This document shows positions 8,516 through 50,028 of a DNA stretch of 64,000 bases, in pieces. The notes beneath the pieces were generated by a model. That model was not told the DNA's origin. It did no database searches and saw nothing but the letters and a program-made list of their open reading frames with translations. The position numbers were made by a program, and so were the translations under genes. The stretch comes from Candidatus Krumholzibacteriota bacterium (lineage in GTDB: Bacteria > Krumholzibacteriota > Krumholzibacteriia > JAJRXK01), in the NCBI GenBank assembly GCA_029262065.1, contig JAJDAC010000024.1:1-64000 (forward strand), written 5' to 3'. Within the stretch, counting starts at the first letter, position 1, and every line of letters starts with the position of its first letter.

Positions 8516-9413
8516 GGGGTGACCTCTGGGCTCCGTAGCGGGCGAGGAAGAACTCTTCGAGACTGGGCTCGCGGCTTAGCAGGTCCTCGATCTCGAACGC
8601 GCTGGCCCTCTGCAACAAGGGTCCGAGTGCACCACTCACCTTGCACCGCAAGGCGCGGCCCTCGATCGTCAGTTCGCCGACGCCTTCCAGGTCGTCGAAT
8701 GCATCAGGCTCCGGCGGTCGGGTGCAGGTGATGGTCACCAAACGCAGCGCCTCGCGGCCGATCGAGGCAACTTCCTCGATCGCGATCAAGCGGCCCGCTT
8801 CGACCATCGCAACGCGATCGCAGACGCGTTCGACCTCGGTCAGATTGTGCGAAGAGAGGAAGACCGTGCGGCCGTCCTGCCGTACTTCCTCGATCAGCGC
8901 GAAGAACTCCTGCTGTACGAGCGGATCCAGCCCAGTCGTGGGCTCGTCGAGGATCAGCAGCGGAGCCTGTTCCTGGAAGGCCAGCACGATCGCCAGCTTC
9001 TGCTTGTTGCCATGGGAGAGAGTTCGGATCGGGCGGTTCAGGTCGGCTCCCAGGCGTTCGGCCAGCTCCTGGATCCGGGCGGCCCGGAAGGAGCCGCCGA
9101 CCTCGGCCAGAAACTGCAGCGCCTCGCGACCCGTGAGATTCTCGTACAGGTGATACTCGCCCGGCAGGTAGCCGATCATGCGGCGCACGGCGCGACTTTC
9201 GCGTCGACAATCGCGACCCAGGACGCGAGCGCTGCCGCGCGTGGGCCGCAGCAGGTCCAACAGCAGGCGGATCGTGGTCGTCTTACCGGCTCCGTTGGGT
9301 CCGAGAAAACCGAAGACCTCGCCTTGCAGCACGGTCAGGTCGATGTCGTCGATCCCCGGGTGGTCCCCGTAGAACTTCGTCAATCCCGCGCATTCGATCG
9401 CCGGTTTGTCCAT
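8505..9413 (-). CDS. ABC transporter ATP-binding protein (DrrA/CcmA type)
   Basis: 302 residues. Walker A is GPNGAGKTTT (~residues 38-47), Walker B is LLILDEPTTGLDP, and the switch His is in FLSSHNLTEVERVCDR. The signature is LSHGNKQKL rather than LSGGQ, a variant common in this exporter class. The C-terminal ~80 residues match the DrrA-type accessory region. It pairs with the overlapping permease gene to form a homodimeric two-gene exporter. No dedicated regulator is adjacent. Confidence 0.9.
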   Translation of the reverse strand: MDKPAIECAGLTKFYGDHPGIDDIDLTVLQGEVFGFLGPNGAGKTTTIRLLLDLLRPTRGSARVLGRDCRRESRAVRRMIGYLPGEYHLYENLTGREALQFLAEVGGSFRAARIQELAERLGADLNRPIRTLSHGNKQKLAIVLAFQEQAPLLILDEPTTGLDPLVQQEFFALIEEVRQDGRTVFLSSHNLTEVERVCDRVAMVEAGRLIAIEEVASIGREALRLVTITCTRPPEPDAFDDLEGVGELTIEGRALRCKVSGALGPLLQRASAFEIEDLLSREPSLEEFFLARYGAQRSPHAR

Positions 9414-9699
9414 TCGGAGCCCCTTTGACGCCGGTGGTGGCCTGCTCAGCCGGGCCAGGGCGGGATTCTAGCATCCGTGGTCGTTGAACACGATCACACG
9501 ATCTGGACACTCAAACGCGATGGTAGGCAGGATCATCTGTTGCGCATCCGCTGGTCTGCTGTTGCGCCGAGCACCTCTGCGGCGGGGATTGAACGTTGAT
9601 GATCGAGGTCGGTGCGCTCGTGCTCCGCGGGCAGTGAGTGCGGATTGATTGCTTGATCGAGGAGTCTGCCGAGTGGATTGCCACGATCCTGATCGGTTC

Positions 9700-11982
9700 C
9701 TATTGCGAGCCCGCCTCACCCTCCGCGTTTCTTCGCCTGAGTTCCGCCAAGATTGCTTCGAACTGCGGGTCTCCATGGAGAGGTTCGAGGTCTGAATCCT
9801 TGGCGATCCACATGGTCTCGCTGCGGTAGCCATGGTCAACAGCGTCTTGCAGCAACTCGATGGCCTCGTTTGGCCGACCGGCCAGGACCAGGATGCAGGC
9901 CAGATTGTAGCGCGCATTGTTTGTATCCGAGTGCTCCTCGCCGAAGACGCGACGCTGGACCTCCAGGTTTTCCAGCGTGAGGGTCCCCGCTTCTTCGTGC
10001 CGCCCCTGATCCGTGTACGTTCGCGCTAGGTTGGTCACCAATGTCTGAGTCTCGTGGGCTTCCTCCCCGAGGACACGACGCGCGATTTCCAGGGCCTCAC
10101 TTTGAAGGGCCTCCGCTTCATCGTACCGGCCCTGTTTTCGACACACGCGACCCAAACTGCATATCACGTTCAGAGTATTCGGGTGCTCCGGCCGAACACG
10201 CCGTTCAATTTCCATTGTCTCTCGATAGAGCGTTTCGGCTTTTCCATACCGTTCTCGGTACTCGTATACACTAGCCAGGTTATGCATGGTCATCTGGGTG
10301 TGTTGGTCTTCTTCACCGAGGACGCGTCTCTGGATCGCCAGAGTCTTGAGAAAGAGCGCCTCGCCCTCTTCGTAACGCCCCTGGTTTGTGTACGCTGAGG
10401 CCAATCTGAGCATGGAAAGCAAAGTTCCTCGGTGCTCTTCTCCGACGATGCGCCGCGCGACCTCCAGTGTTTCCTCCTCGAGCATCTCGGCTTCCTTGTG
10501 GCGGCCCTGCATCATGTACAACTCGGCAAGAGTGCTCATGGCATGGAGGGTGTCGGTGTTCTCCTTTCCGAGTAGATCGCGCCGGATCTCCATGGACCTT
10601 GTCAAATGGATCTCCGCAGTGTCGAACTCTCCCAGCTCGCGGTACGACTTCCCCACGGTAAAGCGGAGACTCGCCTCGACCAGTGGTTTGTCTTTGAATT
10701 TCACTCCGATGGTCTTGGCCATCTCATCCAACATCTCGCGCACTGTGACGTCTCGTCCGCCGAGCCAAGGTGCCACCGACTCCAACATTTCCTGGAGCGT
10801 ACTGGTCACCAGTGCGAGGTCGTCCTTCGTCGCCGCGATCTTCGCCCGCTGTCGATTCGACTCGAACAGACCGAGCCCGAGCGCCAGAAAGACAGTTGCC
10901 GTGATGGCCACACCGACCCGATGTCGCCTTACAAACTTCTGGGCCCGGTAGAGTGTGCTTGGAGCGCCAGCGAGCACCGGCTCGTGATGAAGGTAGCGGC
11001 GAATGTCATCCGCTAGAGCGCTCACGGTGTCGTAGCGGTGGGTGCGATCCTTATCCATCGCCTTGAGAATGATCCAATCCAGCTCGCCTCGAACCTGTCC
11101 GGCCAGAATCGCGGGCTCAGTCTTGCGCTTGACCGCGACCGCGATTCCCTCGTCTCCCAGGGAGCTGATCCGAGTGCTCGGCTTCGGTGGCTCGACCTCC
11201 CGAATGATGCGACACATTCCCTCGAAGCCCGTTTCGATCAGCGATTTCGTATCGAACGGTAAGGCACCGGTCAGCAACTCGTAGAGGAGCACGCCGAGCG
11301 AGTAGATGTCCGTTCTGGTGTCGACGTTGAGGCCGGTCATTTCGGCCTGCTCCGGACTCATGTACGCCGGAGTGCCGATCATCTGACCTTGGAGCGTGTG
11401 TAGTGTTTTTTCGGTGAGCGCAGACGACGCCGAGATCGCCTTGGCGATTCCGAAGTCGATCACCTTGGCGGCGGGCTGTCCGTTCACGATCGCTACAAGG
11501 ATGTTCCCGGGCTTTACGTCTCGATGAATTACCCCCTTCTGATGCGCGTGCTGGATGGCATCGCAAACCGAAAGGAAGAGTTCGAGCCGATCGCGGGTCG
11601 CCAGTCGATGGCGATCGCAGTAGTCGGTGATCGATTCGCCTTGGATGAGGTCCATCGCAAAGTAGGGTCGGCCGCCTTCGGTTTCGCCGAAGTCCAGAAC
11701 TCTCGCGATGTTCGGGTGATCCATCATCGCGAGCGCCTGGCGCTCGGCCGCGAAGCGTGCGAGGACCGACTTGGAGTCCATTCCAGCTTTGAGGAGCTTG
11801 ACCGCGACACGTCGTTTGACGGGCTTCGTCTGTTCGGCGGCATAGACCTCGCCGAAGCCTCCCTCGCCGACCTTTTCGATAACCCGGTAGGGCCCGATGT
11901 GTCGTGGAGCGTCGTGCTCGGACGACGGCGTTGGATGTGTCGAATCCGTTCCGGTGGGCAGCTTGTCTTCTTGGTCTGCCAT
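9700..11982 (-). CDS. Transmembrane Ser/Thr protein kinase with TPR sensor domain
   Basis: 760 residues from the ATG at 11982; an in-frame ATG 69 bases further out gives an implausible leader. The kinase domain (~30-300) has GEGGFGEVY, VAVKLL, HRDVKPGNIL, VIDFGIAKA and GTPAYMSPEQ, so all catalytic residues are present and it is an RD kinase. One membrane span (VGVAITATVFLALGLGLF, ~361-380) follows. The extracytoplasmic part carries a run of about seven TPR_12-like repeats (VLGEEHxxTL..LA..Y..QGRYEEAE type), 430-740. Topology is cytoplasmic kinase, outside TPR. It is probably a receptor-type regulator; its target is unknown. It sits downstream of ybiT in the same direction. Confidence 0.92.
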   Translation of the reverse strand: MADQEDKLPTGTDSTHPTPSSEHDAPRHIGPYRVIEKVGEGGFGEVYAAEQTKPVKRRVAVKLLKAGMDSKSVLARFAAERQALAMMDHPNIARVLDFGETEGGRPYFAMDLIQGESITDYCDRHRLATRDRLELFLSVCDAIQHAHQKGVIHRDVKPGNILVAIVNGQPAAKVIDFGIAKAISASSALTEKTLHTLQGQMIGTPAYMSPEQAEMTGLNVDTRTDIYSLGVLLYELLTGALPFDTKSLIETGFEGMCRIIREVEPPKPSTRISSLGDEGIAVAVKRKTEPAILAGQVRGELDWIILKAMDKDRTHRYDTVSALADDIRRYLHHEPVLAGAPSTLYRAQKFVRRHRVGVAITATVFLALGLGLFESNRQRAKIAATKDDLALVTSTLQEMLESVAPWLGGRDVTVREMLDEMAKTIGVKFKDKPLVEASLRFTVGKSYRELGEFDTAEIHLTRSMEIRRDLLGKENTDTLHAMSTLAELYMMQGRHKEAEMLEEETLEVARRIVGEEHRGTLLSMLRLASAYTNQGRYEEGEALFLKTLAIQRRVLGEEDQHTQMTMHNLASVYEYRERYGKAETLYRETMEIERRVRPEHPNTLNVICSLGRVCRKQGRYDEAEALQSEALEIARRVLGEEAHETQTLVTNLARTYTDQGRHEEAGTLTLENLEVQRRVFGEEHSDTNNARYNLACILVLAGRPNEAIELLQDAVDHGYRSETMWIAKDSDLEPLHGDPQFEAILAELRRRNAEGEAGSQ

Positions 11983-35101: not shown

Positions 35102-35316
35102 GAAGTTGCTCCCGGAGCGTGCGCAAGAAAGCGTGTTTGCGAATCAGCGCGGTTGGCATCGTCGAGGGTGGTCAACGGATCGCGGGCACTGGGGCCAACC
35201 CGTCCGAGTGTAGGCCCCACGGGCAGGAACGTCAGTAGTTGATCACTGAGACCATCGTCGTCCATGGTCAGGACTCTCCAGCGTGGTAATATGAATCACC
35301 CGGCCCGGAGGTGCCC

Positions 35317-36882
35317 ATGCGAGTTCGGATCATTCTTCACGTTATTGCTTGTCTTGCCGCTCTCAGCAGCCAGAGTTCGCCGGCCGTTGCCGCGGCCAGC
35401 CAGGTCCACTTGTACGGTGGCCAAGGAAGTCTCGAGGGGCGTTTCGAGGACGCCAACGGGGACATCGACATGCAGGGTTGGGTCGGGGTCGATTGCCCCG
35501 AGGTTGGCTTCGAACCGCTGTGGCAGGTCAGCGACTTCGAGGCCGAAAACCTGAATTCACACGGGCCCGGCAACCACGCCATGTGGGCTGGCCGAACCCA
35601 AGAGCAGCGTTCGGGCTGGGCGTTTCCGCCCGGCTACGGGGACAACTGGAATACCGTGTTGCTATGGAGTCACCCCGCGCCGACCACGATATCTGCATTC
35701 GATGTACAGCTCGACGCCGTATACAACCACGATACCGAGGGATTCTATGATCCCACCTTGGTCGAATGGAATCAGGCTGGGACCTGGATGAGCCTGGAGG
35801 ACATAGACGGTAGAACATTCGATCAAACTTCGGGCGAGTTTCTACCGCCGGGTGTGGCGATGTTCCACCAATGGACTGTGCAGCCGGAGGACTTGGTCGA
35901 CGAGGAAGTCCAGATCCGAATTCGCGTGACGAGCGATGGGATCGTCTCCGACGAGTCGGGGAACGTCGGCTCCAACCCCGGCGATTCCAGCGGCGCCATG
36001 CAGATCGATGACATGATGGTGAGCTTCGACGGTGTCCCCGTCGATGGCGGTGGCGACGTCGATGGTATCGCGACGTTCGAGAACGGAGACGACGAGGGTT
36101 GGATGCCGCAGCTCGACACCTGCTCCTGCTCCGTCGTATCCGAGCTTCCGGGCGACATCGACCCGGGTCCAGACAACCTCACACCGCAGATCGGACTCTT
36201 CCGGTCCGCGGCGTATCCCGGCACGCAGACGTCGACCTGTCGTTTCACATCTCCCGTCATCGAATGGGATGTTCCCGAGGCAGCGGGTCTTGACGCGGCC
36301 GTGGTTCGCCTGCGCAGCTACCGCGAGTCGAGTGAGAGCGAGGGCACTTGGAGGCTCTTCGCTCGCTCTCGTGTGTCAGGGCAGTGGGAGTTGGACTATC
36401 ACCTGGTCGAGCAGGTGACCGCTCCGCCGGCTGGCTGGCAGACGTTCGACATCATGCTCAACGGGATTCCCGTCGACGCCGAAGCCATCGAGCTGATGAT
36501 CCGGTCCTTTTCGAATTCAACCGAATACAGGCTGACGTTCGATGACATCGAAGTCGTGCGCTTTGATGGCACGCTCACGTCGGTGCCCGCTACCGTTTCG
36601 CGTAGCCCTATCGAACTCGAGGTCTATCCCAACCCCACCAATCCCACGGCGAATATTCGCTATGTTCTGAACGCGGACGCCTCGGTGCGGATCGCGGTCT
36701 ACGACACACGCGGACGTCGCGTGCGCGAGGTCTTTGTGGGAGACAAATCGGCCGGAACGCACACGGTTCGGTTCGACGGCTTGGACGACGCTGGGACACC
36801 CGTGGTGAGTGGGGTCTACTTCGTGCGGCTGATCGCGGGTGATGGGCGGACGAGTGGGGAGCGCGTCGTCATTGTAAGGTGA
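35317..36882 (+). CDS. Secreted protein of unknown fold with FlgD-type tail
   Basis: 521 residues from the ATG at 35317, which has GGAGG five bases before it; an in-frame GTG at 35311 is the alternative. Signal peptide to about residue 30. Two beta-rich halves follow, at ~30-220 (GWAFPPGYGDNWNTVLLWSH, DAVYNHDTEGFYDPTLVEW) and ~240-420 (WMPQLDTCSCSVVSELPGDI, LIRSFSNSTEYRLTFDDIEVV). Both resemble extracellular jelly-roll domains used to bind ligands, but I could not name the family. The FlgD-like tail starts near 428 (YPNPTNPTANIRYVLNADA). It sits divergently from the glucoamylase gene. Confidence 0.78.
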   Translation: MRVRIILHVIACLAALSSQSSPAVAAASQVHLYGGQGSLEGRFEDANGDIDMQGWVGVDCPEVGFEPLWQVSDFEAENLNSHGPGNHAMWAGRTQEQRSGWAFPPGYGDNWNTVLLWSHPAPTTISAFDVQLDAVYNHDTEGFYDPTLVEWNQAGTWMSLEDIDGRTFDQTSGEFLPPGVAMFHQWTVQPEDLVDEEVQIRIRVTSDGIVSDESGNVGSNPGDSSGAMQIDDMMVSFDGVPVDGGGDVDGIATFENGDDEGWMPQLDTCSCSVVSELPGDIDPGPDNLTPQIGLFRSAAYPGTQTSTCRFTSPVIEWDVPEAAGLDAAVVRLRSYRESSESEGTWRLFARSRVSGQWELDYHLVEQVTAPPAGWQTFDIMLNGIPVDAEAIELMIRSFSNSTEYRLTFDDIEVVRFDGTLTSVPATVSRSPIELEVYPNPTNPTANIRYVLNADASVRIAVYDTRGRRVREVFVGDKSAGTHTVRFDGLDDAGTPVVSGVYFVRLIAGDGRTSGERVVIVR

Positions 36883-37661: not shown

Positions 37662-38327
37662 TTATTGGAAGCGTGTCTTGACGCGCCCCCAACTTGTAGC
37701 CTCCACCGCAACGGGGGGCTTGGCCGTGGCGAATAGCACGCCCGCCATGCTACGCGACGCCCCGAACTCATCCACCCAGGTGCCGTCACGTCGCGTATTC
37801 CCAATGGGGTCGAGGTATGGGTCCCCGCCGCCGGTGTCGATCGACAGCAATGCGGTCTCTGGCCGATGCAGCTCCCCCGCAACCCGGCTGCCATCGGAGT
37901 CATAGTCCATGAACAGCCAAAGGTGCGCCCACACCGCATCTTGTGAATCGATGCGGCTGTCCTGGTTGGAGTCGAAGAGTTGCAGCATCTCCCATCCGTC
38001 GGTGGTGACCACATCGTTGCTGCCCGGGGGTCGGATGCTGATCCCGTCCCGGAAGAGCACCGTGCCATTCACCGGGCTGCCATCGTCAGCCAACACCGTG
38101 AATCCCGCCGACTGGACGGAGGTGGCATCCAGCATCAGGAAGCAGTCTTCGACGTTCGGGGTAGTCCAGTGCACATCCCGCATACCCCCTCCGAGAAGAT
38201 CCGTCGTGGTCTGGCCCGAAAGGTCGAGGCCATCGCCGTCCATGTCCAGGATCAGGGCAGATGCGGAGGCGCAGGCGGGCACGATGGCAAAAGCGGCCAC
38301 GGCGAGGAGTTGGGCAATCAATCGCAT
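37662..38327 (-). CDS. Small exported protein with EF-hand-like loops and C-terminal WG-VK motif
   Basis: 221 residues with a signal peptide (~1-24, ending ASASAL). LDMDGDGLDLSG and LFDSNQDSRIDSQDAVW / MDYDSDGS are D-x-D-x-[DN]-type calcium-binding loops, like dockerin or EF-hand repeats, and may stabilise the fold by calcium. No enzyme motif is visible. The last residues are EATSWGRVKTRFQ. This ending lines up with two other short secreted proteins in this window. It precedes the yceH-family gene as a two-gene unit. Confidence 0.72.
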   Translation of the reverse strand: MRLIAQLLAVAAFAIVPACASASALILDMDGDGLDLSGQTTTDLLGGGMRDVHWTTPNVEDCFLMLDATSVQSAGFTVLADDGSPVNGTVLFRDGISIRPPGSNDVVTTDGWEMLQLFDSNQDSRIDSQDAVWAHLWLFMDYDSDGSRVAGELHRPETALLSIDTGGGDPYLDPIGNTRRDGTWVDEFGASRSMAGVLFATAKPPVAVEATSWGRVKTRFQ

Positions 38328-40628: not shown

Positions 40629-40658
40629 GAACCCCGTCTCACGCGGGAGACGGGGTTC
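40629..40658 (-). terminator. Perfect 12-bp hairpin between two co-directional genes
   Basis: GAACCCCGTCTC pairs without mismatch with GAGACGGGGTTC around a 6-base loop. It sits 9 bases after the stop of the small secreted-protein gene and ~30 bases before the hpf-like start, on the strand both genes use. No T-run follows, so it may be a terminator that needs no U-tract, an attenuator, or an mRNA-stabilising element. Confidence 0.5.
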
Positions 40659-40666
40659 CTGTATTT

Positions 40667-41338
40667 CTACCGGTAGAGCGCCTTGATGTTGCCCCAAGCG
40701 CTGCTCTCAACCGGCACCGACGGGACTGTGAGTACACCTGAAATCGCGTAGAAGCTATGGTTGGCCGTCGAAGCGGTAGCTCCATTTCTAACCCATTGTG
40801 CATTGGCGGTGGCCGTCCGCGAACCTATAGTCGGGTTGGGTATTCCGAGAGCTTGGTCGGCAGTGCCGAAACCACCTGTGCCCGTCCAGATGTTGCTAGA
40901 GCCGGTTGCCGTTGCACAAAGCTCCGTGAAGTCCAACTGTACGGCGATCGACCAATCCCAAAGGTCATCATAGGTCGTCGCGAGCATCGTATCGTTCAGC
41001 AGATATACGGGTACATTTCCGGGCGGCGCGGTCCCCGTGTTGTCCCGGGCGTCCACCGTAGCTGTCGATGCCATTGCGAACCATTGGGTGCCAAGCGCAG
41101 CCAGCTCTGGGATGGCGTTTGCGGCGGCGGAGACGAACGTGTTGTAGTCGGCAATATCGGTCGATTGAGCATCTCTCACCCCGGAAGTCACGAACGCGAG
41201 GCGATACTCTTCATTCGGGTTGAGACCCGTGGGTATGACAATTACGCTTGCGTTCACGCTGCTCGCGCCAAGCGCGCAGAGAAACAGGGCGAGCAGGCTG
41301 GCAGCAATGGAGGCCGTCGACACAGTTAGGTGTTTCAT
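40667..41338 (-). CDS. Small secreted protein, PEP-CTERM-like body with WG-IK tail instead
   Basis: 223 residues. Signal peptide ~1-30 (SVNASVIVIPT). The body (LNPNEEYRLAFVTSGVRDAQ, LGTQWFAMASTATVDARDNT, PVYLLNDTMLATTYDDLWD, FYAISGVLTVP) recalls secreted proteins that in other bacteria end in a PEP-CTERM sorting tail directly after such a GVLTVP sequence. That recollection is unverified. Here the sequence ends instead in VESSAWGNIKALYR, with no membrane segment. It resembles the tails of two other proteins in the window. The function is unknown. Confidence 0.75.
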   Translation of the reverse strand: MKHLTVSTASIAASLLALFLCALGASSVNASVIVIPTGLNPNEEYRLAFVTSGVRDAQSTDIADYNTFVSAAANAIPELAALGTQWFAMASTATVDARDNTGTAPPGNVPVYLLNDTMLATTYDDLWDWSIAVQLDFTELCATATGSSNIWTGTGGFGTADQALGIPNPTIGSRTATANAQWVRNGATASTANHSFYAISGVLTVPSVPVESSAWGNIKALYR

Positions 41339-44773: not shown

Positions 44774-47146
44774 TCAGGACAAATCGTCGAGCCCCATCAA
44801 TCGGACCAGGCGCCGAAACCGTGGTACTTCGACCAGCTCAGGCATGTAGAGACCGGGCATCGCCAGCAGCCACGACGCGCTTTCCCGGTGGCCCTCATAC
44901 GCCTCCTCCAGTAGCGCCAGTGCTTCTTCGGTGCGGCCCATTGCGAGATAGAAATCCTGGAGGCTGCTCTCGACCTCAGTGCCGCTGGCTTTCCTGGCCA
45001 GGAGTTGTTCCAGCGAATCCTGCGCGAGAGAATCGGCGTCGACCATGGAGTACGTGATGCCGATCCACGCGCGTGCGAGCGGCGTGTCGTCGCCGGCGAA
45101 CATACGATCTGCGGTTTGCGCCGCCGCGAGGGCTTCGTCGGAGCGACCGGCCTGCGCCAGCGCGCGGGAAAGTTTGACGTGGCCCCAGATCCAATGGGGA
45201 TTGAGGTCGATCGCATAGCGAAACTCCGCGGCGGCGAGTTCGAATTGCCGATCGCCGAGCAACGCGAATCCGAGCCAGTGCGTGGCGCGTGTCGAGAGCG
45301 GATCGATCTTCTTGGCCTTGCGACTGACCTCGATAGCTTCCTTCCAGCGGCCTGCCTGGGTCAGGCACTCGGCGTAGCGCAGGTTTGCGGTGAGGCTATT
45401 GGGGTCGAGCGTGAGGGCGCGGCGGTGATGCTGCATCGAACCGGCCCAGTCCCAGTCGTAGCTCCAGGCGATGGCTCCCATCAGGGAGTGCGCTTCGGCG
45501 AGATCGGGATCGATCTTCAGCGCGCTGGCCAGCGCGGACTTGGTTGCCGCCAGGGCTTCGTCTCCGCCCTCGATTCCATGATTGGACATCTGGAGGTGGG
45601 CCTCCGCCAGCGCGCAATAGGCCAGGGCGTAGTCGGGACGACGCTGGATCGCCTGTTCCAGTAGATCGATTCCCTTGAGCATTCCAGCTTGGGTCCCCAC
45701 CAGGAGCTCACGTGCCCTGAGGTACAGACGGTATGCCTCGGAATCGTGGGTGGGTCGATGTTGCACGCTGATTTGCGTCGTTGGATCGATTGTCGGACGT
45801 AGCTTGGCGCTGATGGCCTGCGCGAGTTGGGCTTCGAGAGCGACGATATCCAGGTTCGGTTGGGTGAATCGACCGCCCCAAATCTGGCGGCTATCATGGA
45901 CATCCACGAGTTCGGCACTCACCGAGATTTCATCCCCGTTCGTGGTCAGCCGTCCGACGACCACGGCCTCAACGTCCAGTGCCTTGCCGATCGCCTCGAG
46001 ATCGCCGGTCCCTTCGCGGAAGCGAAAGGAAGACAACCGTGAAATCACACGGAGGTCGGGGTTTCTGGACAGCGAGTTGATCATGCCTTCCGCGAGGCCA
46101 TCGCACAGGTAGCCCATGTCTTCGGACTGCGTTGCATTCGTGAAGGGAAGAACTGCCACCGACGAGATGGTCTCGTCGGATTCCGGACGGAGCTGGAGGA
46201 TTGCGAACGCCGCGACGAGGGCGAGTGTCAGGACTCCACCCAGCGGAACCCACTTCGGGACGCGCGCCAGCGAAGGCGCTGGGGTTGCGTCGGTGGTTCC
46301 AGTCTGCGAAGGGGTTCGCAGGTTGTGCAGATCGACGTTGAGGTCGGCGGCAGACGGATAGCGCATCGACGTGTCCTTGTGCAGACACTTGCGGATGATG
46401 CGCTCAAGTTCCTGGGGCATGTCCGGCCGCAACTCCATGACCGAAACCGGGTCGTGCGTCATGAGCTGGCTCAACACGTCGACGGAACTCCCGCCGTCGA
46501 AGGGTCGAACACCGGTTGCGAGTTCATACAGGATGATGCCGAGGCTGAAAACATCGCTGCGTGCGTCGAGCGCGGCGCCGCGTGCCTGCTCCGGGCTCAT
46601 GTAGTGCGGCGTTCCCAGGATCGTGCCGGATCTTGTCGCAACCTCGGTGTTGAGTTGGGTCCGTGCATCGTCGGTCCGCTCCTGCTTCGCCAACCCGAAG
46701 TCGACGATCTTCGCATTGCCGCGACCGTCGATGAGGATGTTGCCGGGTTTCAGGTCACGATGGAGGATCTGATGACCGTGGAGGGCGGTGAGCGCATCGC
46801 TGATCTGATCACCGTAGCGAAGTATTTCCTCCAGTGGAATGGGGTCTCGCCCAAGCCTCTGGCTCAGGGTCTCTCCCTCGATGATCTCCATGGCGTAGTA
46901 GAAGACATCGTCGTCGTGGCCGACATCATAGATGTGGGCCAGATGCGGATGGTTCAGCGCGGAGGCCGACCGGGCCTCGCTCTCGAATCTCCGGAGGCGG
47001 TCCTTGTCCTGGGTGAACTCATGGGGCAGGATCTTGAGCGCCACATCGCGATCTAGGCGGGTGTCGCGCGCGCGGTAGACTTCAGCCATCCCGCCTTTGC
47101 CGAGGAGGCTGGTGATCTCGTAGTGCGCGACCGATTTACCAATCAA
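44774..47146 (-). CDS. Transmembrane Ser/Thr protein kinase with TolB-like and TPR domains
   Basis: 790 residues, TTG start. Kinase (~9-270): GKGGMAEVY, VALKIL, HRDLKPGNILI, IVDFGLAKQ, GTPHYMSPEQ. The membrane span is VPLGGVLTLALVAAFAILQL (~290-312). The outside part has a TolB/FlgO-like domain (~320-460: SVAVLPFTNATQSEDMGYL, GLAEGMINSLSRN, VVVGRLTTNG) and then TPR repeats (~470-770). It is preceded by a small gene-like frame with a strong ribosome binding site whose stop lies 13 bases upstream. Its neighbour upstream on the same strand is another receptor kinase. Confidence 0.92.
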   Translation of the reverse strand: MIGKSVAHYEITSLLGKGGMAEVYRARDTRLDRDVALKILPHEFTQDKDRLRRFESEARSASALNHPHLAHIYDVGHDDDVFYYAMEIIEGETLSQRLGRDPIPLEEILRYGDQISDALTALHGHQILHRDLKPGNILIDGRGNAKIVDFGLAKQERTDDARTQLNTEVATRSGTILGTPHYMSPEQARGAALDARSDVFSLGIILYELATGVRPFDGGSSVDVLSQLMTHDPVSVMELRPDMPQELERIIRKCLHKDTSMRYPSAADLNVDLHNLRTPSQTGTTDATPAPSLARVPKWVPLGGVLTLALVAAFAILQLRPESDETISSVAVLPFTNATQSEDMGYLCDGLAEGMINSLSRNPDLRVISRLSSFRFREGTGDLEAIGKALDVEAVVVGRLTTNGDEISVSAELVDVHDSRQIWGGRFTQPNLDIVALEAQLAQAISAKLRPTIDPTTQISVQHRPTHDSEAYRLYLRARELLVGTQAGMLKGIDLLEQAIQRRPDYALAYCALAEAHLQMSNHGIEGGDEALAATKSALASALKIDPDLAEAHSLMGAIAWSYDWDWAGSMQHHRRALTLDPNSLTANLRYAECLTQAGRWKEAIEVSRKAKKIDPLSTRATHWLGFALLGDRQFELAAAEFRYAIDLNPHWIWGHVKLSRALAQAGRSDEALAAAQTADRMFAGDDTPLARAWIGITYSMVDADSLAQDSLEQLLARKASGTEVESSLQDFYLAMGRTEEALALLEEAYEGHRESASWLLAMPGLYMPELVEVPRFRRLVRLMGLDDLS

Positions 47147-47340: not shown

Positions 47341-50028
47341 TCAACGCTTCAACAACCCTGTCCAGTTCTGGATCAGCCGCGCACCGGCCTTGTCCCGGCT
47401 TGCCGCCGGCAATTCTTGAGTAAGGATTCGCTCTCCATCCTGACTCGGTTCATAGACCGGGTCCACCGAATTGGAGTTCAGGTTGAACAAGACCTGGGGC
47501 GTACCAGGCGTGAATCCTTGGTCCGTTCGGATAGGGACGGCCATCAAGGCAGTGCCGCGAACATAGAAGAGCTCGCGCCCGTCGCTGCGCCACAAGGGAC
47601 GCCGTGCCGGACCGTCCAGCTTGTCGCCCGAGGCTATCCAACGCCCCGATGCCACGGGGTAGGACTGGACATAGATGTGTGCCTCTCCCGATTGGATGAC
47701 CGAATATGCGAGGTACTTGCCATCCGGTGACAGACTGGCCGCTTCTTGCCACGAAGGGTCTTCCAGCAGGGCTTTCGCCGTGAAGCTCTCCATGTCCAGG
47801 ACCCAGATGTCTCCACCTCCCTCGTTGGGTGCCACCAGATTGAAGAACACGTGGCGCCCGTCCTTCGACCAGTGGGTGAGCTCGATCTGGGTGTTTGATG
47901 TGTAGATCCGTTTTGCCGGCTCCTGGCCGGACACGGCGCGTCGATAGATTTCGCCGGCGGAGGTTGGGGTGACGGTGTAGACGAGATACTGGTCGTCCGG
48001 CGACCACAAGGGTGTGCGTTCGTCGGCAGGATCAAAGGTGAAGCGTGTTTGCCGCCCACCCTCGAGGTCGTTGATCCAGATGCTTCCGACATCCTGGCCC
48101 GAGACGACGGCTAGGCGCGTGTCGTCGTTGGAAAGCTTGGGCTCGTAGAAGATGCCCGGTTCTCCGATCGTGGTCAGGGCATTCCCTTGCCGATCTCTCC
48201 AGGTAAGAACCGAGCGTGCGGCCCCCGCGCCGCGCAGGTGAATCAACGAGCCGGATTCCGAGACGCCGAATTGGGCGCCGCCCCACGAGATCGCTCCGCC
48301 TGGGATATCGGTCGCGACGGGAACTGGATCTCCCGTCACGCGCCCCGCCGCCGGGTCGAATGGATGTGCCATCAGGGTGGATCCGTTGCGGTAGAGAACA
48401 TGCCCACGCGAATACGCTGCACGGGATTCGCATCGAAGCAGGAAGCGCGAGTCGTTGGAGTCGAGCGACCCCAGGTAGACCCCACTATTCTCGTTCGCGG
48501 CAGGGTTCGTGGTACAGGCCACGTAGTAGAGAAACCGTCGGCCGTCGGGCAGAAACGAGGGAAAGCGATGGATTATATCCTTCCGTTCCAGATCGAGGGT
48601 CGTGAGGGGTTCGGGGGTGCCGCCACCGGCCCCGATCTTCATCAGCCCCTCGTTCCATTCGCGCTGGAAGATGATGACACCATCTCGGCTCCAACTTCCG
48701 CCTCGCCCCTCACCGGCGTCGCATAGTGGGATGATCGGCCCCCCGCGCGACTCGATCTTGTTGAGCTTGCCGTTGGCGAAGAAACCGATCCAAAGCCCAT
48801 CTGAAGACCAGAACGGATACGCATCGCCGTCCGAAGTGGTGAGTTTTCGTGGATGCGGAGAATCCAGGTCTCGAATCCAGATCATATTCGTGCCGGTGCC
48901 TCGATCTTCATTGTCGGGCCGAGGAAAGGCGACGAAGGCGATCTGGGTCCCGTCGGGGCTCACCTCAAATGGTGCTCCCGGTGAAAAGTCCCATCCGAGC
49001 GGCGGGTCGAGGGTCGTTTGGATCAGCGGTGCGTCGGGCGGCGTCGGGCGCAGTAAGCCGAGCCCAGCAACGCCGGCCAATGCCACCATCAATAGCGCGA
49101 TCCACGCCAGACGCTCGCGTCGAAAACCGGTGGATGGGGGCGCGGTAGTTCGAATCTCGGAATCGTCGCTGCGACCCGCCCTTAGGCCTTCGAGGGCAAT
49201 ACGCGCCTCGCCCACGTCTCGCAGACGGGTCGCAGGATCGCGGTCGAGACAGCGTGCGAGCAAGCGACGAAGCGTCTCCGGCGTGTCGCTCGGGAGTAGT
49301 TCAAAATCGATCTCAGTCTTCAGGACCTCCGCCATCGTCTCGCTGGTCGTCTCGGCCTGGAACAGTTTGCGGCCGACGAGAAGTTCGTAGAGGACCACTC
49401 CGTACGACCAGATGTCGGCACGCCGGTCGACGGATCGCCCCTTGGCCTGCTCCGGGCTCATGTAGGCGGCGGTGCCAAGGATGGCGCCGGCCTGAGTCAA
49501 CGCGGCGGTGATCGTCGGAGAATTCTCGAGAGAACTTTCCTCGGTGGGTTCCCCGGTGAACGCGCGGGCAAGTCCGAAATCGAGCAGCTTGACCTCGCCC
49601 TGTGCGGTGATCTTGATGTTGGCCGGCTTGAGATCTCGATGCATGACTCCGTTGTCGTGCGCGAACTCGAGTCCCTCGGCGATCTGAGTGGCTACGGAGA
49701 CGACGTCTTCCATGGCAAGCGCGCCTCTCGCGTCGAGATGCTCGGCAAGATCCTGCCCTTCGACAAGTTCCATGACGAGAATCGTCGCTCCGTCGATTTC
49801 CTCAATACCGAATAGGGAGGCAATGCGCGCGTGATGGAGCGAGGCGAGGGTACGGGCTTCGCGCCGGAATCGGGCCAAGCGCTCCGCGTCATCGGCGAGC
49901 TCGGACGGGAGGAGTTTCAGGGCTACTTCTCGGCCGAGTTTGGTGTCGGTCGCGCGATAGACCTCGCCCATGCCGCCCTTTCCGAGCAGCGCAGTGACTT
50001 CGTAGTGGGCGAGGGTCTTGCCGATCAT
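47341..50028 (-). CDS. Transmembrane Ser/Thr protein kinase with PD40/TolB-like propeller
   Basis: 895 residues. Kinase (~9-275): GKGGMGEVY, VALKLL, HRDLKPANIKI, LLDFGLARA, GTAAYMSPEQ. The membrane span is LAWIALLMVALAGVAGLGLL (~302-322). The outside part is a TolB-like six-bladed propeller with PD40-type repeats: ISPDGTQIAFVAFPRPD-like, DGDAYPFWSSDGLWIGFF, LSNDDTRLAVVSG, LWSPDDQYLVYTV, LSPDGKYLAYSV. It may bind a periplasmic ligand or protein. The end (VDPVYEPSQDGERILT) is propeller-like. It reads divergently from the TetR operon. Confidence 0.93.
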   Translation of the reverse strand: MIGKTLAHYEVTALLGKGGMGEVYRATDTKLGREVALKLLPSELADDAERLARFRREARTLASLHHARIASLFGIEEIDGATILVMELVEGQDLAEHLDARGALAMEDVVSVATQIAEGLEFAHDNGVMHRDLKPANIKITAQGEVKLLDFGLARAFTGEPTEESSLENSPTITAALTQAGAILGTAAYMSPEQAKGRSVDRRADIWSYGVVLYELLVGRKLFQAETTSETMAEVLKTEIDFELLPSDTPETLRRLLARCLDRDPATRLRDVGEARIALEGLRAGRSDDSEIRTTAPPSTGFRRERLAWIALLMVALAGVAGLGLLRPTPPDAPLIQTTLDPPLGWDFSPGAPFEVSPDGTQIAFVAFPRPDNEDRGTGTNMIWIRDLDSPHPRKLTTSDGDAYPFWSSDGLWIGFFANGKLNKIESRGGPIIPLCDAGEGRGGSWSRDGVIIFQREWNEGLMKIGAGGGTPEPLTTLDLERKDIIHRFPSFLPDGRRFLYYVACTTNPAANENSGVYLGSLDSNDSRFLLRCESRAAYSRGHVLYRNGSTLMAHPFDPAAGRVTGDPVPVATDIPGGAISWGGAQFGVSESGSLIHLRGAGAARSVLTWRDRQGNALTTIGEPGIFYEPKLSNDDTRLAVVSGQDVGSIWINDLEGGRQTRFTFDPADERTPLWSPDDQYLVYTVTPTSAGEIYRRAVSGQEPAKRIYTSNTQIELTHWSKDGRHVFFNLVAPNEGGGDIWVLDMESFTAKALLEDPSWQEAASLSPDGKYLAYSVIQSGEAHIYVQSYPVASGRWIASGDKLDGPARRPLWRSDGRELFYVRGTALMAVPIRTDQGFTPGTPQVLFNLNSNSVDPVYEPSQDGERILTQELPAASRDKAGARLIQNWTGLLKR

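Follow-up and report, generated by a model that had tools for sequence, protein, structure and literature searches.

We found that a secreted protein of a Candidatus Krumholzibacteriota bacterium ends in a short, helix-free tail, and that at least 39 proteins of the same genome, belonging to 26 body families without detectable similarity, end in this tail. The tail is probably an undescribed label for protein export or sorting. A role as a C-terminal sorting signal is likely, and we regard a link with the type IX secretion system (T9SS) as an even chance. The best explanation, to which we assign a probability of about 0.5, is a short C-terminal sorting signal that is probably handled by a SprA/T9SS-like system.

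The tail in the window and in its genome

The protein was found in the window, that is, the whole 64,000-nucleotide stretch of DNA analysed. Its open reading frame (40667-41338, minus strand) encodes 223 amino acids: a Sec-type signal peptide visible in the sequence (MKHLTVSTASIAASLLALFLCALGASSVNA, residues 1-30, 41249-41338, cleavage site estimated), a body with a predicted endostatin-like fold (residues 31-207, 40718-41248) and the tail VPVESSAWGNIKALYR (residues 208-223, 40670-40717), which is predicted to be disordered and has the conserved core A/S/T-W-G-x-[VI]-K-x-[LR]-[FY]. The C-terminus reads ISGVLTVPSVPVESSAWGNIKALYR; the body closes with ISGVLTVPS, and the tail and the stop codon follow. 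No hydrophobic C-terminal helix was present. The sequence-only reading, which had described a PEP-CTERM-like body with another tail and no membrane helix, was confirmed in both respects, the open reading frame being exact and the helix absent. PEP-CTERM HMMs gave no match to the protein, and membership of the tail in PEP-CTERM was rejected, as the PEP motif, transmembrane helix and basic cluster are lacking. The tail end is not a frameshift artefact: none of the frames past the stop encoded anything resembling PEP-CTERM, and a hairpin of 12 pairs (40629-40658) lies about 8 nt beyond it. The hairpin is the probable end of the transcript.

The body model (mean pLDDT 90) resembled the endostatin fold in Foldseek (1dy1, E = 1.4e-5, TM 0.65), and an endostatin-like fold is predicted with high confidence. 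This similarity was not found by sequence search; PDB sequence searches with the body returned weak matches alone, probably by chance, and plasmids searched for the body gave no match. The window encodes a second secreted tail protein of 221 amino acids with an EF-hand-like body (37662-38327, minus strand), the tail of which is VAVEATSWGRVKTRFQ (37665-37712).

Throughout the genome, the tail is 10-16 residues long and follows the consensus V-x-[TV]-E-x-x-[ST]-[WF]-G-x-[VI]-K-[AGS]-[RL]-[FY](-R). A strict codon pattern for the tail occurred at 4 places in the genome versus 0 for the reversed control, and a loose pattern, in which only W-G-x-[VIM]-K near the stop was fixed, at 56 places versus 6; the 39 tail proteins derive from these 56 places. 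Positions left free by the pattern were conserved as well, with V/I at -7 in 36/39, T/V at -5 in 35/39 S/T at -1 in 38/39, A/G/S at +5 in 38/39, R/L at +6 in 32/39 and F/Y at +7 in 38/39. Results of a simple heuristic showed a signal-peptide-like N-terminus in 32 of 36 tail ORFs (89%) compared with 47 of 371 background ORFs (13%, p ~1e-21). The recognisable bodies are of extracellular types, including malectin, Calx-beta, PPC, DUF1349, beta-propeller and EF-hand. Comparison of 48 tails with Pfam and NCBIfam models at E <= 10 yielded no match except one stray Pfam match, and the literal tail strings were not found in open-licence full texts, which is weak evidence for novelty. At C17:105500-110500 and C41:233000-235700 of the window genome (G000), one secreted family forms tandem arrays of paralogues that bear the tail, its W and F versions lying side by side.

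Exchange of C-terminal labels on shared bodies

Relatives of the window body were found at 35 loci in a single scan that covered 84,980 species genomes. One hand-written guide sequence was added to the query alignment to steer pattern choice, and the window body was used in tblastn to confirm every match. Relatives also occur as repeated modules within very large bacterial proteins. Within the phylum, the body was present in the window's own genome and in none of the other 79. Single-domain relatives in Alphaproteobacteria, Deltaproteobacteria, Planctomycetes and Verrucomicrobia have the same junction (YAIS..LTV..VPEP), followed by a hydrophobic helix and arginines. TIGR02595 (NCBIfam) scored above its cut-off at L076, L078, L079, L083 and L085 and below it at L080 and L086, and the tail of L093 was IPTL-CTERM (NCBIfam); Pfam found PEP-CTERM in 8 and IPTL-CTERM in 1 of 24 aligned body members.

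In the body tree, which has a midpoint root only, the window protein was sister to L076 (support 98/87) and lay inside a 20-row group that holds all 11 single-domain CTERM-type proteins. The closest relative of the window body is from an alphaproteobacterium. Judged from these sequences, the simplest history would be that the body was acquired from a PEP-CTERM lineage and its anchor was replaced by the local tail. A natural tail swap had been proposed from the sequence alone, and it is supported by homologues in which this junction leads into a PEP-CTERM tail and among which the window protein is nested; elsewhere, the body family does not end as it does in the window. The swap amounts to a natural experiment, in which the same cargo bears another label in another lineage. 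The further proposal, that such a swap supports a sorting signal, stands in so far as the sorting role is strongly inferred, and the recurrence of the tail (at least 39 proteins, several phyla) goes beyond it.

The genome of the window also has an exosortase (PF09721 match, G000 C14:311140), located in an exopolysaccharide (EPS) cluster. A canonical PEP-CTERM protein adjoins the exosortase in this cluster (L136:1326-1997 and 9000-9917, G000 C14). The TIGR02595 search of the genome, which gave 0, missed this protein and was a false negative.

Exchange was also observed with type A domains of T9SS. The L044 body family, searched with the body alone and with C-termini read afterwards, gave 23 matches in this genome. 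Among 52 complete-ended relatives, 44 carry the short tail, 4 a FlgD/type A domain and 4 neither; of the four type A-like ends, three were scanned and each exceeded the TIGR04183 cut-off. One cargo family therefore carries either label. The tail is wider than W-G in this family, as SFGAVKGRF, SFGSVKSLFR and SFDSLKSLYR are also present. The known type A class occurs in the same genome as the short tail: a secreted neighbour in the window (35311-36882, plus strand) has a full T9SS type A/FlgD_ig C-terminal domain (residues 438-521; TIGR04183, 41.7 bits, cut-off 23). Membership of the short tails in this class was rejected, as they have no TIGR04183 or PF18962 domain of ~70-80 residues and match no T9SS model.

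Distribution of the tail and of SprA

Of the 80 phylum genomes, 79 contained the tail pattern, with a reversed control near 0. Most of 209 out-of-phylum genomes were without it; eight have 3 to 55 matches (G144, G147, G177, G182, G213, G272, G285 and G288), and the tail proteins read in these were mostly secreted as well. Others have a single match; about 8 of the single matches could be due to chance, in line with about 8 reversed-control matches across the 209. Outside the phylum, the F-for-W variant gave 5 matches versus 3 for the control, too little above it to test the link with SprA independently.

In six single-match genomes, the match was one secreted family with a predicted Ig/FN3-like beta-sandwich, one per genome (L137:6336-6767, L122, L123, L140, L141 and L142). 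Its tail, TWGSIKA[ML]FR, is nearly invariant though the bodies are 27-37% identical, and AlphaFold placed the tail outside the fold with low confidence. The neighbourhoods of this one-copy family in other lineages had no shared neighbour but itself. The family may be linked to the machinery of the tag.

SprA (TIGR04189) was detected in 80/80 phylum genomes and in 25/25 out-of-phylum genomes with a tail match, and so was peptidase C25 (PorU family, by family match). Among 184 tail-free out-of-phylum genomes, SprA was present in 58 and SprA together with C25 in 29, counts that ignore shared ancestry. The tail is thus nested in genomes positive for both. All 15 genomes with several matches or with a tail protein read were SprA-positive (15/15, p ~4e-7); the SprA matches in G117, G164 and G181 were weak. 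SprA of the window genome is encoded at G000 C32:22258-27078, and an M28-family peptidase gene lies directly 3' of sprA (L202:15705-16649, G000 C32). No tail-bearing gene was found beside SprA in the seven loci read. The phylum has a single class and SprA in all its genomes, which would be consistent with the FCB group; further FCB phyla may also possess T9SS (PMC11285876).

Reading of the tail and known sorting systems

Several properties of T9SS substrates are shared by the tail proteins, namely a Sec signal peptide (32/36) and the presence of SprA and C25 in the genome. In HBP35, the T9SS targeting signal was mapped to the final 22 residues of the C-terminal domain; PorU lost its function when its last six residues were replaced, and a lysine near the C-terminus, in the last strand, is conserved (PMC11285876). 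Contact with PorV is made by a lysine that is almost invariant and lies near the C-terminus (PMC10994853). The single lysine of the tail lies 4-5 residues before the end, and by analogy the tail could be a stand-alone version of the T9SS terminal motif. In its fullest form, this proposal would make the tail a stand-alone minimal SprA (type IX) signal, an unfolded C-terminal peptide of 10-16 residues that is centred on one lysine, freely swappable with PEP-CTERM anchors and folded type A domains, and used by many secreted proteins in several little-studied phyla; we advance it tentatively, at a little under even odds.

Under the proposed mechanism, tail proteins would be made with a Sec signal peptide and would cross the inner membrane. 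In the periplasm, a machine for export and attachment at the outer membrane would recognise the disordered tail and deliver the proteins to the surface or outside; this machine would most likely be the SprA (type IX) translocon of the lineage with its carriers. With 10-16 residues, the tail would fill the role that the type A domain, of ~80 residues, has in Bacteroidota. Recurrence on unrelated secreted bodies, conservation, the lack of a membrane helix, exchange of labels and nesting in SprA- and C25-positive genomes are observed, whereas recognition in the periplasm, the part of SprA and any cleavage or attachment of tail proteins are steps that we infer.

Another envelope machine, for example a new sortase-like enzyme or receptor, might read the tail, and SprA would then co-occur as an old feature of the superphylum. 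The same recurrence and exchange would fit such a machine, the 58 SprA-positive genomes among the 184 tail-free ones indicate that SprA alone does not require the tail, and SprA and C25, the counts of which ignore shared ancestry, could both mark one superphylum. However, the replacement of tail by type A domain within one body family and the strict nesting in SprA- and C25-positive genomes point to T9SS, and we consider another machine rather unlikely. It is improbable that the tail is a docking motif, holding exported or periplasmic proteins on a receptor of the outer membrane, peptidoglycan, S-layer or polysaccharide with no role in translocation. The short amphipathic W..[IV]K.L[YF] pattern and the carbohydrate-binding or adhesive domains among the bodies (malectin, Calx-beta, PPC, DUF1349) would suit docking, but the restriction to SprA-positive genomes and the replacement by type A domains would be left unexplained.

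The exosortase of the genome and the PEP-CTERM relatives of the body raise the question of whether the tail is a degenerate PEP-CTERM signal and a substrate of this enzyme. The tail has neither membrane helix nor Arg cluster, and the exosortase lies in the EPS cluster beside a canonical PEP-CTERM protein of its own. Moreover, PF09721 was matched in 0/36 searched genomes of the tail-rich family f6, so exosortase is not required for the tail; such genomes already contradict this reading, which we hold very improbable. We hold it equally improbable that BAM reads the tail as the C-terminal beta-signal of an outer-membrane barrel. Tails of this genome often end in F or Y, but in most relatives an extra R/K/E follows the aromatic residue, and the bodies are small soluble domains, that of the window protein being predicted to be compact and endostatin-like with a disordered tail. 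To our knowledge, BAM is near-universal in Gram-negative bacteria, whereas most of the genomes searched lack the tail. Paralogue sets of 8, 3 and 2 members exist among the tail proteins, yet chance composition or a single duplicated gene family is refuted by the 26 unrelated families, the near-zero controls and the conserved flanks outside the search pattern, and its probability is negligible.

The preferred reading, a short sorting signal with a SprA/T9SS-like system as its probable reader, has both parallels and differences in known systems. The PEP-CTERM/exosortase system (TIGR02595, PF07589, PF09721) also uses a C-terminal tag on many unrelated Sec-exported proteins, at the same junction in the window body family, but its tag is tripartite (PEP motif, transmembrane helix, Arg cluster); the tail has none of these parts and occurs without detected exosortase. 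MYXO-CTERM, GlyGly-CTERM, IPTL-CTERM and VPDSG-CTERM are likewise lineage-specific C-terminal tags of many unrelated secreted proteins, although they contain a membrane helix and are cut by an intramembrane protease where studied, unlike the helix-free tail. T9SS type A (TIGR04183, PF18962), with SprA/PorV/PorU, combines a Sec signal at one end with a C-terminal signal at the other, has a conserved lysine near the C-terminus and swaps with the tail on one body family; it is a folded Ig-like domain of ~70-80 residues, whereas the tail has 10-16 residues, is predicted to be disordered and is not matched by any T9SS model. Two further signal classes of the T9SS translocon are known, type B (TIGR04131) and type C, but they have ~100 residues and other motifs (PMC10202324), and the tails gave no NCBIfam match to them. 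If read by T9SS, the tail would be a new signal class, because the described classes A, B and C are all domains of ~70-100 residues (PMC10202324). A type IX signal would then need to be no more than a short unfolded peptide, a point relevant to the question of what the translocon recognises. The tag is carried by dozens of proteins per genome, in the whole phylum and several other lineages, and has no HMM; it would allow hundreds of uncharacterised proteins to be predicted as surface or secreted.

Elsewhere in the window, two neighbouring genes (44774-47146 and 47341-50028, both on the minus strand) seem to encode large Ser/Thr protein kinases, the C-terminal regions of which resemble TPRs or propellers.
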